Source: Rhodospirillaceae bacterium
Lineage (GTDB): Bacteria > Pseudomonadota > Alphaproteobacteria > MPNO01 > UBA2964
Reading direction: 5' to 3'
NCBI GenBank assembly: GCA_002720855.1
Contig: PBIN01000015.1
Span: 186,001-250,000 of the forward strand
DNA: 64,000 nt
Of the stretch, positions 7,031-62,103 are shown one piece after another. The position numbers were made by a program, and so were the translations under genes. Below the pieces are notes generated by a model that saw nothing but the letters and a program-made list of their open reading frames with translations, searched no databases and was not told where the DNA came from. The first letter of the stretch is position 1; the number at the start of each line of letters is the position of its first letter.

Positions 7031-7120
7031 TGGCGGAGAGTGAGGGATTCGAACCCTCGGTACCCCTAAAGGCACAACGGTTTTCGAGACCGCCCCGTTC
7101 GACCACTCCGGCAACTCTCC
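7031..7120 (-). tRNA. tRNA-Ser(CGA)
   Basis: On the minus strand a 7-bp acceptor stem (GGAGAGT with ACTCTCC) encloses a D arm, an anticodon loop CTCGAAA giving anticodon CGA, a long class II variable arm typical of tRNA-Ser and a T arm with GGTTCGAATCC. Discriminator base G is followed by an encoded CCA (7031-7033). It decodes TCG. Confidence 0.95.
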
Positions 7121-45184: not shown

Positions 45185-45565
45185 TCAACCAGACAACGCT
45201 ATTTTAAGGACAGCAATTAAGGATGATAAGCCCAAAATAGTGGCCATAATTTTAACGGCTGTAATAGAAGCGGTCTTTACCCATTCGGTGTGCACATAGT
45301 CCTCGATAACGACCTGCAATCCAAGTTGGGCATGGTGAAAGACCATAACGATCAGCAAGATGAGTAAGACGGTTGTTACCGGATTCGACATCCATTCGCG
45401 AACAAGTTCGATATTGGCACCGGCAAGTTGCGCAATACTCGCAACAAACCACAGCACCATCGGTACCAGGGCCACAGCTGTCAGCCTTTGTACCCACCAA
45501 TGGGCCACGCTGCTCTTGGAGAAAGCCAGGCCAAAAACTCTTCCGATTTCGGCGCGAAAACTCAT
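45185..45565 (-). CDS. sdhD: succinate dehydrogenase membrane anchor SdhD
   Basis: 126 residues from ATG 45565, which overlaps the sdhC stop as TGATG; a longer frame to 45643 runs inside sdhC. Three membrane helices; [16 protein letters not shown] carries the family's Arg, and [15 protein letters not shown] the haem-ligand His and the conserved ED(Y)VH. Confidence 0.93.
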
Positions 45566-45960
45566 CACAAAACTCCCATGGACGAATAACCCCATGCCCA
45601 AGAGCACAAGGTTAGAACAATGGAAGACGATATGACGATCCACCCTGAGCGGTACGCCGCCGGAAGATCCAGGCCTTTACCAATATCCCAAAATAGATGA
45701 CGAATGCCGTTACAAAGATGATAAAATAAAGCAAAGGACCAGCCGAATAACATTAGCTGGCCTATCCAGGAACCAACCACCATTTGCACCGTCGTATAGG
45801 CACCTCCTCCCATGGCGGCGGCAATTAACCACCATACCAACAGCAACGTACCTGCCGAAAGTGCAACGCCGGTAATGCGATGCAAAATTGATAGAGTGGA
45901 CGTAAGCTGCGGCTTGTATACTTGTAGGTGCGGAGAAAGCGGACGCTCTCTGGTGTCCAT
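45565..45960 (-). CDS. sdhC: succinate dehydrogenase cytochrome b556 subunit SdhC
   Basis: 131 residues, three helices. RPLSPHLQVYKPQLTSTLSILHRITGVAL is diagnostic, shown by its family block, and the haem His lies in FYHLCNGIRHLFWD. AGGAAG ribosome site before the ATG. First gene of the operon. Confidence 0.96.
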   Translation of the reverse strand: MDTRERPLSPHLQVYKPQLTSTLSILHRITGVALSAGTLLLVWWLIAAAMGGGAYTTVQMVVGSWIGQLMLFGWSFALFYHLCNGIRHLFWDIGKGLDLPAAYRSGWIVISSSIVLTLCSWAWGYSSMGVL

Positions 45961-46299
45961 TTCATTCTTCCTGTTAAGTCAATCGATGCGCTACTGGGAT
46001 CATACCCGCGCTTCTTGAATTTGTTTAGACCTTCGCCCACGGCTAGTCAATTCTGTCAGCCCCATTTCACGCTCAAAATTCGTTCTGAACATCATTTTTT
46101 TAACCTTCGCAAAGAGTTGCTCCACTTATCGTCAAAAACGGTTGAACCATACTGCGAGGTATTGTGTGTAAAATTGTGGACGAAATGTTTAGGAGTTGGG
46201 GAAAGACGGGATGTTTATACACAAGAAATTTGATGATTAGGTTAAAAAACCGTTGCCCAAAATCGAAATCCTTAAGAACATTTCCATACGTGAGAGCGT

Positions 46300-46988
46300 A
46301 CGAATCAGGATGCGCAGCGTAGGCGACAGGGGGGCGATCGCAAGGTCGATTTCCTAGTTTACGACGCAGTGGTTGAATGGTTCACCGGCCGAATGGTCAC
46401 CTGAGCCGGATAAGCCTTAGGGCGGACTTCGACGAGGGACTTGGCTGGAACGCAGACCGCCAAGATGGGCTGGGAACGCGTGGGATGGTCTTTTGATCAA
46501 ACGATGCGCCGCCTGTCACTGGAGGACAGTCTGTGACGCTATTAATCGACAGCCGTCTTCGGACGGTCAAAGGCTAGTAGCGATATAGATTGTTTAGCGC
46601 GGCTGTAGACCATCCAGGGGGCTTTGCCTGCTATTTGGTTGTTGTGACAGGTTATTGTCCTGGGCCTCCCTATTGGGCATTGCCTGTCGCCGAAGGGTTT
46701 TGTCTCGCCGCTTAGGGACGCTGCCCGCAGGTAGCCGGAATTCCGGTATGGCTGTCTCGCCACAGCCATGTGCCCGGAGCCGGTAACTAGCGGGATACGT
46801 CACGGACCTTTCGTATCGAGGGCGGTAACGTAGTCACAGTCCGCTGTGACCGATGCCACCGCCGGTCAGGGCCAGGCGTCTTTGCCGAGGCCGCCGCCTG
46901 ATCCGGAAACTCGGACGCTCTTACGACCAGAAGTCCTTTGAGGCTTCAGAGACGCCGGACCTTCGATGGTCCGGCGTCTCGCCGTTTT
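46300..46988 (+). ncRNA. candidate structured non-coding RNA
   Basis: Several perfect hairpins crowd this stretch: CCGTC-TTCG-GACGG (46553-46566), ATGGCTGT/ACAGCCAT with a 6-nt loop (46748-46769), GTCACAG/CTGTGAC with loop TCCG (46833-46850), the palindrome CCGGAATTCCGG (about 46735-46746), and a final 13-bp stem GAGACGCCGGACC/GGTCCGGCGTCTC (46949-46980) followed by GCCGTTTT. The T run lies on the plus-strand side, so plus is preferred. I checked by eye for RNase P, tmRNA and 4.5S consensus blocks and saw none. The 5' limit is unknown and no promoter was fixed. A decayed gene or mobile element is the alternative. Confidence 0.35.
46949..46988 (+). terminator. strong hairpin, plus-strand terminator candidate
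   Basis: A perfect 13-bp stem with a 6-nt loop (TTCGAT), then GCCGTTTT. On the minus strand it lies 18 nt after the stop of the CitE-like gene, but no T run follows on that side. Confidence 0.55.
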
Positions 46989-46997
46989 AGATAAATG

Positions 46998-47894
46998 TTA
47001 TTCGGCGTTATTCTCCATCTCTTCAATGGTTTCGGCCAACCGTACCAATCGCTGAGCCTCCTCAACGTGCAAGCCTTCCACCAGCTGGCCGTCAACCAGC
47101 GTAACGCCTTTTCCTTCTGCGAGCGCCGCTTCGTGCGCCGCCGTTATCTTGTGCGCCCAATCAATTTCCTCGGTTGACGGCCCATAAACAGAATTAGCGC
47201 CCGCCACGGTTTTGGGATGCAGCAATGTCTTCCCGTCAAAGCCCATTGCTCTACCTTGTCGGCAAGATTCGAGAAATCCCTCATCATCCGAAAGGTCGAA
47301 AAATGGACTATCCAAAATTGTCAAATTGTTTGCCCGGGCCGCGAGAATGCAGAGTTGGATGCTCGTCTGTAATGGTTGACGATCAGATGTGTGCTGCGCA
47401 CGAAGGTCTTTGGTAAGATCCGCCGAGCCAATTAAAAGTGCGCCAACGCGCGAATGCGCTGCCGCTATTTCGTTCGCGTTAAGAACACCCTGTGCTGTTT
47501 CGACCATGCACCAGATCTGCATATCCTCTGGAGCGCCCGCTGACGCCATGAGCTCGGCTACTCCGGCAACAGTCTTTGGCGAGTCAACTTTGGGTACAAC
47601 GATCATATCGGCGCCAGATGTTGCGATCGCCTTTATATCCTGTTCATGCTCTTCAGTACCTACGCCGTTAATCCTGACACCAACTTCACGGAGCCCATAG
47701 CCTCCCGCCTCCAAGGCCTGAAGGATGTTCGACCTGGCCCTGTCCTTGGCGTCGGGTGCCACACCGTCTTCAAGATCCAATATAAGAATATCAGCGGGCA
47801 CCTCCTTACCCTTCTCAAGCGCACGCACATTGGCACCAGGCGTATACATCGCGCTTCTTCGCGGACGGTCAGCTTTCATATTATCAGCAGTCAT
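46998..47894 (-). CDS. HpcH/HpaI aldolase/CitE family protein, malyl-CoA lyase-like
   Basis: 298 residues. The CitE barrel is clear: RRSAMYTPGANVRALEK, DILILDLEDGVAPDAK, VRINGVGTEE, MVVPKVDSP-type strand (MIVVPKVDS), MVETAQGVLNA with the metal Glu, and GFDGKTLLHPKTVAGAN. These enzymes cleave or hydrolyse malyl-CoA, methylmalyl-CoA or citramalyl-CoA; which one cannot be told. ATG 47894 is preferred because AAAGGA lies 6-7 bases upstream; frames open to 47921. Confidence 0.9.
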   Translation of the reverse strand: MTADNMKADRPRRSAMYTPGANVRALEKGKEVPADILILDLEDGVAPDAKDRARSNILQALEAGGYGLREVGVRINGVGTEEHEQDIKAIATSGADMIVVPKVDSPKTVAGVAELMASAGAPEDMQIWCMVETAQGVLNANEIAAAHSRVGALLIGSADLTKDLRAQHTSDRQPLQTSIQLCILAARANNLTILDSPFFDLSDDEGFLESCRQGRAMGFDGKTLLHPKTVAGANSVYGPSTEEIDWAHKITAAHEAALAEGKGVTLVDGQLVEGLHVEEAQRLVRLAETIEEMENNAE

Positions 47895-47975
47895 CTGCAT
47901 TCCTTTCACATTTGCCTGCATTATAGGGCTGCTTGGAAAGGCAACAAGCGAGCGATGGTGGTTCTTTCACGTCAT

Positions 47976-48039: not shown

Positions 48040-48819
48040 TCAGATCGCCCGCCTGCGTCTCCTCATATATCCAAGCGCGAACAGGCCGGCACACATTACA
48101 GCAAGGCTGCCTGGCTCTGGAACGTCAGCGCTTGTCTGCGCCAAGTTCGCGTTGATATCGCCATATCCATCGGACAATGTCGGGCCGGTATAACCTGCCG
48201 TCGTTGTCACATTCCATCCGAGCCAACCTGAGAAACCAAGATTGATATTCTTGCCGTTGGCGCCAATTCCCAGCTGATAAGGAAGGCTAAGGTCGGTCGG
48301 GCGCTGATATAGATCAAGCGTCGCCCCGGCCAAAGCGCCGGTACCGATGAGCTTGCTCTGTCCTTCGACCATATCGAAATAGGTCCAGGTATCGGTATCC
48401 ACAGGCCCGCCGCTTTCGGAATAAGCAGCAGAAATCAATTCGCGCTTTCCGTTAAAGCTCGCGGGCATCGTCCGGAGATTAAAATCAATCTCTACGTCGA
48501 AAGTCAGGGTGGGATCGGCCACGGCGTAAATTGATCCTCTCAAAGTCGCCGTTCCTGCCGTTGTGTTGTACTCCAATGTTCCGAGGCCACCTGAAGCGGG
48601 CGTGAACCGGAAATCGGTGTCCGCATTACCCGAAACCAGAGAAGGGAGCCAAAACGCATGGCCGCCACCGCCGCCGTACCACGCTGGATCAACTGGGGTT
48701 TCTGACACACCATACGTCACGATGCTGCTGTTTGCAGCGGCTGGCAGCAGACACAAGCCTACCAGGACCGCAGCAATCCAACGGCTGATATTCTGTACGA
48801 TGTACCCAAAATTATGCAT
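48040..48819 (-). CDS. PEP-CTERM sorting domain protein
   Basis: 259 residues: signal peptide (WIAAVLVGLCLLPAAANS), a beta-rich, Gly-rich secreted domain with no catalytic motif, and a typical PEP-CTERM tail: VPEPGSLAVMCAGLFAL followed by GYMRRRRRAI. Such proteins are cut by an exosortase and exported, often with exopolysaccharide. Single-gene transcript with its own terminator, beside a GT41 glycosyltransferase gene. No Cys cluster or enzyme signature is seen. Confidence 0.92.
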   Translation of the reverse strand: MHNFGYIVQNISRWIAAVLVGLCLLPAAANSSIVTYGVSETPVDPAWYGGGGGHAFWLPSLVSGNADTDFRFTPASGGLGTLEYNTTAGTATLRGSIYAVADPTLTFDVEIDFNLRTMPASFNGKRELISAAYSESGGPVDTDTWTYFDMVEGQSKLIGTGALAGATLDLYQRPTDLSLPYQLGIGANGKNINLGFSGWLGWNVTTTAGYTGPTLSDGYGDINANLAQTSADVPEPGSLAVMCAGLFALGYMRRRRRAI

Positions 48820-51200: not shown

Positions 51201-52025
51201 GTGGCGGGCGTGACTCTTAGAGTTGGTGCAAGGTGGGATGACCCCGTTCAGGACGACCGGATTAAGGCTGCCTACCGGCGCGGCCTGATCGATTATATCG
51301 AGGTTAATTATCCCATCCCGTTCGGCTCTCAGCCGCATGCGCTCGATATTCCGGTTCTCGCCCATACAAGCAGCAACCCAACCTGCAGTGCTGAAGGCAT
51401 AAACCTCAATATCGCCCGGCGCATTAAGGAGGCTGCGGATGAGACGGATTCTCCCTGGATTGGCGAACACCTTTCATGGCTTGGTACGGCACCCACGGGG
51501 TCCCTTGGCTACCAGATTAACCCGTTATTCACTGAAGAGTTTGCCGCCGTGACAGCGATGAATATTCGGCGTTTGAGAGACTATTATGCGCGCCCCGTAG
51601 CCCTCGAGCTGGGCCCGATTTATATTCATTCGACAGAATATGAGAGTGAGATGCATTTTCTCGCGGCGATCGCCAACGACGTTGACGCCAAGGTTATCCT
51701 TGATGTCACGCATTGGCAGATTGGAAATCGTAATCTTGAGCGACCGACCGATTATGGCTTAAGCGCCATTGATCCAGAGAGAATCGTTGAGCTGCATATC
51801 GCTGGCATGCGCTTGGGTTCAGACAAGCGATTTTGGCACGACGCACACGACTTGCTTCCGAATGAAGAAGTCGTTTCCATGGTGGTCAAGCTAGTGGAAG
51901 AACTCCCTGCACTTGAGGCGCTAACGTTCGAGCACAATCCGACGGCCCCCGAAGACGACTTTTTTAAATTTCTGGAGGAAATGGATAAACATGTAGGGAG
52001 CTATCGGGCTCCCGTTGCCGCATAG
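51201..52025 (+). CDS. DUF692 (MNIO-like) family protein, divergent
   Basis: 274 residues with a TIM-barrel DUF692 pattern. DUF692 enzymes are multinuclear non-haem iron oxidases that modify Cys-containing peptides. Candidate metal positions: LAHTSSN, GEHLSWLG, LELGPIYIHS, ILDVTHWQIGNRN, ELHIAGM, WHDAHDL and TFEHNPTAPEDD. Several differ from common members (DVNN, HIAGH and ENV blocks are changed), so this is a divergent branch. The start is GTG 51201; GTG 51210 is also possible, and neither has a clear ribosome site. It leads a three-gene unit. Confidence 0.8.
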   Translation: MAGVTLRVGARWDDPVQDDRIKAAYRRGLIDYIEVNYPIPFGSQPHALDIPVLAHTSSNPTCSAEGINLNIARRIKEAADETDSPWIGEHLSWLGTAPTGSLGYQINPLFTEEFAAVTAMNIRRLRDYYARPVALELGPIYIHSTEYESEMHFLAAIANDVDAKVILDVTHWQIGNRNLERPTDYGLSAIDPERIVELHIAGMRLGSDKRFWHDAHDLLPNEEVVSMVVKLVEELPALEALTFEHNPTAPEDDFFKFLEEMDKHVGSYRAPVAA

Positions 52026-61991: not shown

Positions 61992-62103
61992 CGTTTCCGA
62001 TCAATAAATTTCGTTCAACGCAAAAAACACCGGTGTGCGAACACTCGCAGACCGATGGTCACCCCTGGGCGATAAAACCTTTACTGGCCTTGGGTTGAGC
62101 GGG

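Follow-up and report, generated by a model that had tools for sequence, protein, structure and literature searches.

A gene-free stretch of several hundred nucleotides, lying between the sdh operon and a lyase gene of an uncultured alphaproteobacterium, raises the question of whether so hairpin-dense a segment specifies a functional RNA and, if so, of what kind. The original prediction, made from sequence alone within the window (the whole stretch of DNA analysed, 64,000 nucleotides in length), had placed a long, possibly undescribed structured RNA at positions 46300 to 46988, had named a decayed gene or element as its main rival, and had listed three results that would refute it, namely an absence of compensatory changes in homologues, a good protein match, or an Rfam match to a known family. 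The analyses presented here support the proposal: it is very likely that the locus is a genuine structured RNA. The reading favored overall, likely but lacking transcript data, is that of a stand-alone gene encoding a large and structured noncoding RNA that constitutes a lineage-restricted new family with a preserved fold and an inferred role as a scaffold acting in trans.

The local features on which the prediction rested were largely confirmed. The hairpins CCGTC-TTCG-GACGG (46553-46566), ATGGCTGT-CTCGCC-ACAGCCAT (46748-46769) and GTCACAG-TCCG-CTGTGAC (46833-46850), together with the 13-bp stem GAGACGCCGGACC/GGTCCGGCGTCTC (46949-46980), are all present where they had been placed, and the palindrome reported near 46740 is CCGGAATTCCGG, at approximately 46735-46746. 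A claimed jump in composition at about 46300 also held, G+C rising from 0.39 (46100-46299) to 0.59 (46300-46499), as did the claim that structure is denser here than in other intergenic stretches of the window. Specifically, the minimum free energy of the plus strand is -329.5 kcal/mol, as compared with -278.1 +/- 6.3 kcal/mol for 20 dinucleotide-shuffled sequences, none of which was as stable (z -8.1). When the window was surveyed in 100 tiles of 640 nt, the target proved to be the extreme, its plus strand lying 39 kcal below its shuffles when the next best tile reaches 22 and the mean is 2.6. The minus strand at the same locus yields a z of -5.4. Two claims required amendment: the structured unit starts at approximately 46288, not 46300, with an outer helix (46289-46301/46913-46925) closing the whole RNA, and the proposed plus-strand terminator held only in part, its stem being present and its U run being short and set off by 5 nt.

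As summarized in Table 1, P1 closes a multibranched junction comprising P2, P4, P5, P6, P7 and an optional P3, while P8 and P9 trail behind; the RNA measures approximately 640 nt from P1 to P1' and approximately 700 nt when P8, P9 and the tail are included. Within one genus of uncultured Alphaproteobacteria this fold is kept through compensatory changes, and a divergent form of it occurs in a sister genus, represented by genome G009, in which P1 is a perfect 13-bp helix of different sequence. The tetraloop capping P2 is GCAA, replaced by GUAA in G003. P3 is cleanly absent from G001, G003 and G004 and is reduced to approximately 50 nt in G009, a pattern of presence and absence that is the behavior of a peripheral domain in a folded RNA. 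At the base of P5 two pairings compete: either the P5a hairpin forms, or GACG pairs with CGUC at the foot of P5b, and the data do not settle between them. Invariant sequences reside in the loops of P4 (GGCCUCCCUA), P5a (GCCGCUUA), P5b (CUCGCC) and P7 (UUUGCCGAGGCC). Within this set, GAGGCC of P7 (46887-46892) is complementary to GGCCUC of the P4 loop and is invariant, also in G009, and UCCCUA of P4 is complementary to UAGGGA of P5a, again invariantly, with five of six pairs possible in G009. Given that about half of one such complementary pair is expected by chance from 66 invariant hexamers, P4-P7 is regarded as no more than a candidate pseudoknot or kissing loop and P4-P5a likewise as suggestive only; intramolecular and intermolecular contacts cannot be distinguished.

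Table 1. Positions of the RNA, its helices and its flanking features within the window.
Feature	Position	Strand	Evidence or remark
sdhC, which heads the neighboring sdh operon and diverges from the RNA	45565-45960	-	PF01127, E 5e-36
DnaA-box-like repeats TGTGTGTAA, TTATACACA (TGTGNATAA, TTATNCACA), between the sdhC promoter region and the RNA	46163-46223	.	conserved in several genera
Putative promoter TTGCCC-17-GAACAT, 6-7 nt upstream of the inferred 5' end	46253-46281	+	weak, inferred; by eye, partial conservation among homologues
Complete RNA gene, from P1 through P9 to the U tail	46288-46991	+	z -8.1; covariation; homologues in same slot
P1 5' strand CGTGAGAGCGTAC	46289-46301	+	pairs with 46913-46925; three double-changed pairs in genus
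P2 arm, GNRA tetraloop cap	46302-46383	+	five double-changed pairs over three helices
P3 side domain, 255 nt, with UUCG hairpin 46553-46566	46386-46640	+	16/90 double-changed pairs
P4 hairpin, invariant loop GGCCUCCCUA at 46663-46672	46644-46690	+	double-changed pairs: six (with G009), four (genus core)
P5 domain with P5a and P5b	46691-46813	+	covariation; one helix with seven double-changed pairs
P5a, invariant hairpin GUCUCGCCGCUUAGGGAC	46701-46720	+	within P5
P5b, covarying	46724-46794	+	within P5
P6 hairpin	46823-46858	+	four double-changed pairs
P7 arm, loop UUUGCCGAGGCC	46861-46906	+	loop invariant in genus and G009; two double-changed pairs in arm
P1 3' strand	46913-46925	+	pairs with 46289-46301
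P8 hairpin	46930-46947	+	UNCG-type loop in several homologues
P9, 13-bp stem and GCCGTTTT	46949-46988	+	likely 3' end or terminator
HpcH/HpaI gene of the CitE or malyl-CoA lyase type, oriented convergently to the RNA	46998-47921	-	PF03328, E 2e-46

Compensatory changes, the absence of which would have counted against the prediction, are abundant. In the core without P3, 93.1% of cells across the 166 pairs are paired in the five genus sequences, and 26 pairs have changed on both sides, as compared with 13.0 after shuffling (0/500 as high) and 4-9 in slid controls. When G009 is included, the 58 pairs of P4-P5 are 94.4% paired and 15 are double-changed (6.0 shuffled, 0/500; slid 0-5), while the 90 pairs of P3, available from three sequences, are 94.1% paired and 16 are double-changed (8.1 shuffled, 0/500; slid 0-6). 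These values must be read with some caution: the structures were derived from the same alignments, such that the percentage paired is favored, relatedness inflates the shuffle tests, and the fold rests on few sequences, five complete ones within a single genus plus one from a sister genus. It is because the slid controls stay low and separate domains agree that the covariation signal is taken as real. Consistent with constraint upon the locus, the RNA core of G000 is 71-75% identical to that of other genus members, as compared with 34-35% at fourfold-degenerate sites of neighboring genes.

The same alignments bear on whether selection acts on RNA or on DNA. G-U cells far outnumber A-C cells (125 vs 14 in the core; 49 vs 4 in P3), and the plus strand is therefore inferred to be the RNA strand under selection. 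An alternative, in which the locus is a DNA-level element with cruciforms, whether belonging to a replication origin or to a regulatory locus bound by DnaA, draws support from the conserved DnaA-box-like repeats 65-125 bp upstream of the RNA, but is very unlikely in light of this one-strand signature. The origin variant was moreover rejected on the basis of GC skew: in G002, a complete chromosome, the switch falls near 2.78 Mb, approximately 340 kb from the locus at 3.12 Mb. The repeats themselves may represent a DnaA-regulated promoter or a DnaA-titrating site.

A second alternative, that of a dual-function or coding RNA with a small protein inside the structure, could appeal to short ORFs of up to 75 aa in the window copy. 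Against it, no ORF is intact across all homologues, indels in the three-way alignment are of 1-2 nt, and the small ORFs at the locus have no Pfam match. A coding role is thus considered highly improbable; the original claim that no convincing reading frame exists held, and the good protein match that would have refuted the structured-RNA prediction was not obtained.

Homologues of the RNA were identified in five other genomes of the genus (G001-G004 and G007), in every case between sdhC and the lyase gene. The copy in G001 (L025:1575 onward) is truncated inside P5b and lacks the entire 3' half, possibly through decay or an assembly fault, and in G005, G006 and G008 the flanking genes are present and the RNA is absent; an intact RNA is consequently missing from four of the nine genus genomes, which are MAGs of varying quality. 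Beyond the genus, a covariance model built on P4-P5 (R1) returned a sole match, a weak one in G009 (E 0.019), which a search for sdhC located approximately 410 bp upstream of that gene in the sister genus and which is accepted as a homologue because synteny with sdhC confirms it. The G009 RNA is 452 nt in length, has a z of -8.4 and presents P1 to P9 in the same order. A second model including G009 (R2) added no homologue from 385 class and 399 phylum genomes under stricter filters, and an exact gapped pattern searched across 84,980 species matched only five uncultured Alphaproteobacteria MAGs of the same genus. No match to the exact pattern was found in viral contigs, nor any match to the RNA in the phages and plasmids searched. 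Weak matches in other genera (L011, L015, L022, L023) were set aside as they are not beside sdhC and looked like chance matches, and minus-strand model matches in G000 (E 0.005-0.018) were attributed to self-complementarity of the same locus.

In G022, belonging to a different family of the order, the same slot holds a 94-nt hairpin (L115:953-1046; z -4.8) with P1 strands nearly the same as those of the large RNA (ACGCGAGAGCGC ... GCGCTCTTGCG). This hairpin is possibly a minimal relative of the large RNA, a relationship that is unproven. The sdhC-lyase slot houses other content elsewhere: a TacA/GNAT (TacT-like) toxin-antitoxin pair in G013, G016 and G018 (L110, L112, L113), assigned by Pfam for the G013 pair only and by eye for the other two, and an apparent Fic-family gene, also recognized by eye, in G020 (L114).

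These distribution data bear on the main rival named at the outset, a decayed gene, intron or miniature inverted-repeat element with the P1 strands as its terminal inverted repeats. In its favor, P1 is an inverted repeat, P3 may be present or absent, and the G022 element is much shorter with nearly the same P1 strands. It is contradicted by covariation, with compensatory changes in every domain, by sequence conservation, and by copy number, the locus being single copy in the source genome; the RNA also occupies the same position throughout the genus, has no Rfam intron match, and is without a match in phages, plasmids or viral contigs. Decay or mobility is accordingly judged a very remote explanation.

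Having set aside these alternatives in favor of a structured RNA, there remains the matter of whether it acts upon its neighbors. Pfam identifies sdhC, sdhD, sdhA and sdhB on the minus strand beside the RNA, followed by a gene of the lactate/malate dehydrogenase family (judged from its position to be mdh) and by ORFs inferred, from order and sizes only, to be sucCD, sucAB and lpd. On the other side, a gene for a protein with a PEP-CTERM sorting signal (48040-48819, minus strand) adjoins the lyase gene, and an MbnB/TglH/ChrH-type RiPP modification enzyme is encoded at 51201-52025 (PF05114), where a peptide-modification cluster is possible. A cis-acting role, in which the RNA would serve the divergent sdh operon as leader or attenuator, or would run into the convergent lyase gene as an antisense 3' extension that regulates it, is suggested by the invariable location of the RNA between the same two genes and by a 3' end that, in the window, lies approximately 10 nt away from the stop codon of the lyase gene. 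Yet both flanking genes lie on the opposite strand, no gene is found directly downstream on the plus strand, and P1 closes the whole RNA, followed by a stem and U run, as in a free RNA. Furthermore, sdhC and the lyase gene remain paired in the absence of the RNA in G005, G008, G011, G012, G015 and G024, and no leader matching this RNA in size and complexity is known to us. Cis action is therefore unlikely, and a stand-alone RNA is the likely reading.

The ends of this stand-alone RNA are less firmly defined. A sigma-70 consensus scan upstream of it returned no match, leaving only the weak putative promoter of Table 1. At the 3' end, P9 is an imperfect terminator, its 13-bp stem and just four U being separated by 5 nt, while a smaller alternative hairpin (46972-46984) abuts TTTT; P9 with GCCGTTTT could be a plausible but weak terminator, or the likely 3' end, a point on which there are no transcript data. 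Transcription of the plus strand, ending near 46985, is likewise inferred without such data.

With regard to function, the genomes that lack the RNA or carry a truncated copy suggest that its role is conditional and non-essential. By the favored mechanism, the RNA would act in trans as a folded scaffold within a ribonucleoprotein or RNA-only assembly, a proposal as apt to prove wrong as right and resting on inference only, because no partner protein or target has been found. Under this proposal, the invariant loops of P4, P5a, P5b and P7 would be the likely contact surfaces, to protein or to other copies of the RNA, by analogy with ornate RNAs in general, with GGCCUC/GAGGCC of P4 and P7 as a candidate kissing or pseudoknot contact. 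Sizes across relatives range from approximately 94 nt (G022) through approximately 450 nt (G009, G003, G004) to approximately 700 nt (G000, G002, G007). A bolder reading, possible though less likely than not, inferred and with oligomerization untested, would recognize a new class of large RNA in marine Alphaproteobacteria, composed of a P1 closing helix and exchangeable modules, whose invariant loops would build a structured particle either from several copies or by recruiting a protein. Bacterial RNAs so large and complex are rare, most of them being ribosomal RNA, RNase P, self-splicing introns and a few ornate RNAs of open role. The present locus adds a separate family, with covariation enough to model and a constant chromosomal location next to a TCA-cycle operon, and its natural versions with and without the 255-nt domain, as well as relatives without the RNA, render its function testable by comparative transcriptomics and assembly in vitro.

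Comparison with known RNAs drew upon Rfam 15 (4227 families, including OLE, GOLLD, ROOL, HEARO, introns, RNase P, 6S and tmRNA). At gathering thresholds, the whole window contains no family beyond one tRNA and the ffh sRNA, both away from the locus; these are known families, at 7034-7120 (minus strand) and 62021-62072 (minus strand; RF01793), respectively. Permissive E-values at the locus yielded only mir-3718 (E 4.5, far below threshold), and a search over 11 related loci at E up to 1 yielded no family. The Rfam match that would have refuted the prediction was thus not obtained at the locus or its homologues, and all three of the refuting results named beforehand failed to materialize. Literature searches returned no description of such an RNA, subscription journals being mostly outside their coverage.

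Like 6S RNA, the locus RNA has a long closing helix, and 6S, RNase P, alpha-tmRNA and SRP RNA are structured housekeeping RNAs of the Alphaproteobacteria. In contrast, each of these has a normal copy elsewhere, canonical 6S, RNase P and alpha-tmRNA genes being present in G000, G002, G007 and G009 and an ffh-type RNA elsewhere in the window, such that the locus RNA is additional; replacement of a missing housekeeping RNA was ruled out on the same grounds for 6S, RNase P and tmRNA. A tRNA-like 3' end (a helix followed by NCCA) was also considered and dropped, as there is no T-arm and the RNA runs on into P8 and P9. HEARO or IscB omega RNA, retron RNAs and group I and II introns are similarly structured over several hundred nucleotides but differ in that the locus RNA has no Rfam match and is flanked neither by a nuclease or reverse transcriptase gene nor by a host gene that has been interrupted, its neighbors being the sdh genes, the HpcH-type lyase and the PEP-CTERM protein.

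OLE is, like the locus RNA, a large, highly structured, stand-alone bacterial RNA; it forms a dimer, and OLE, ROOL and GOLLD have been reported as RNA-only oligomers (PMC12286853). OLE occurs mostly in extremophilic and anaerobic Firmicutes, whereas the locus RNA belongs to another lineage and has no match to any Rfam family. ROOL and GOLLD, large ornate bacterial and phage RNAs (ROOL env-120 being 659 nt), resemble it in length, in their many helices, invariant loops and optional domains, in having no obligate gene partner, and in their unknown function; ROOL resides in phages and prophages, in many cases close to tRNA islands (PMC12286853), unlike the locus RNA, which is encoded by a syntenic chromosomal gene and is without a phage or Rfam match. 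Covarying helices over several hundred nucleotides, the absence of coding, and the lack of a downstream gene to lead satisfy those criteria of a large stand-alone structured noncoding RNA that can be judged from sequence, which would make it an RNA of the same broad sort as OLE, GOLLD and ROOL, with no sequence relationship to them. By every test applied, this is a new RNA family, included in none of those described; the descriptive category of large stand-alone structured RNAs in bacteria is itself already established.
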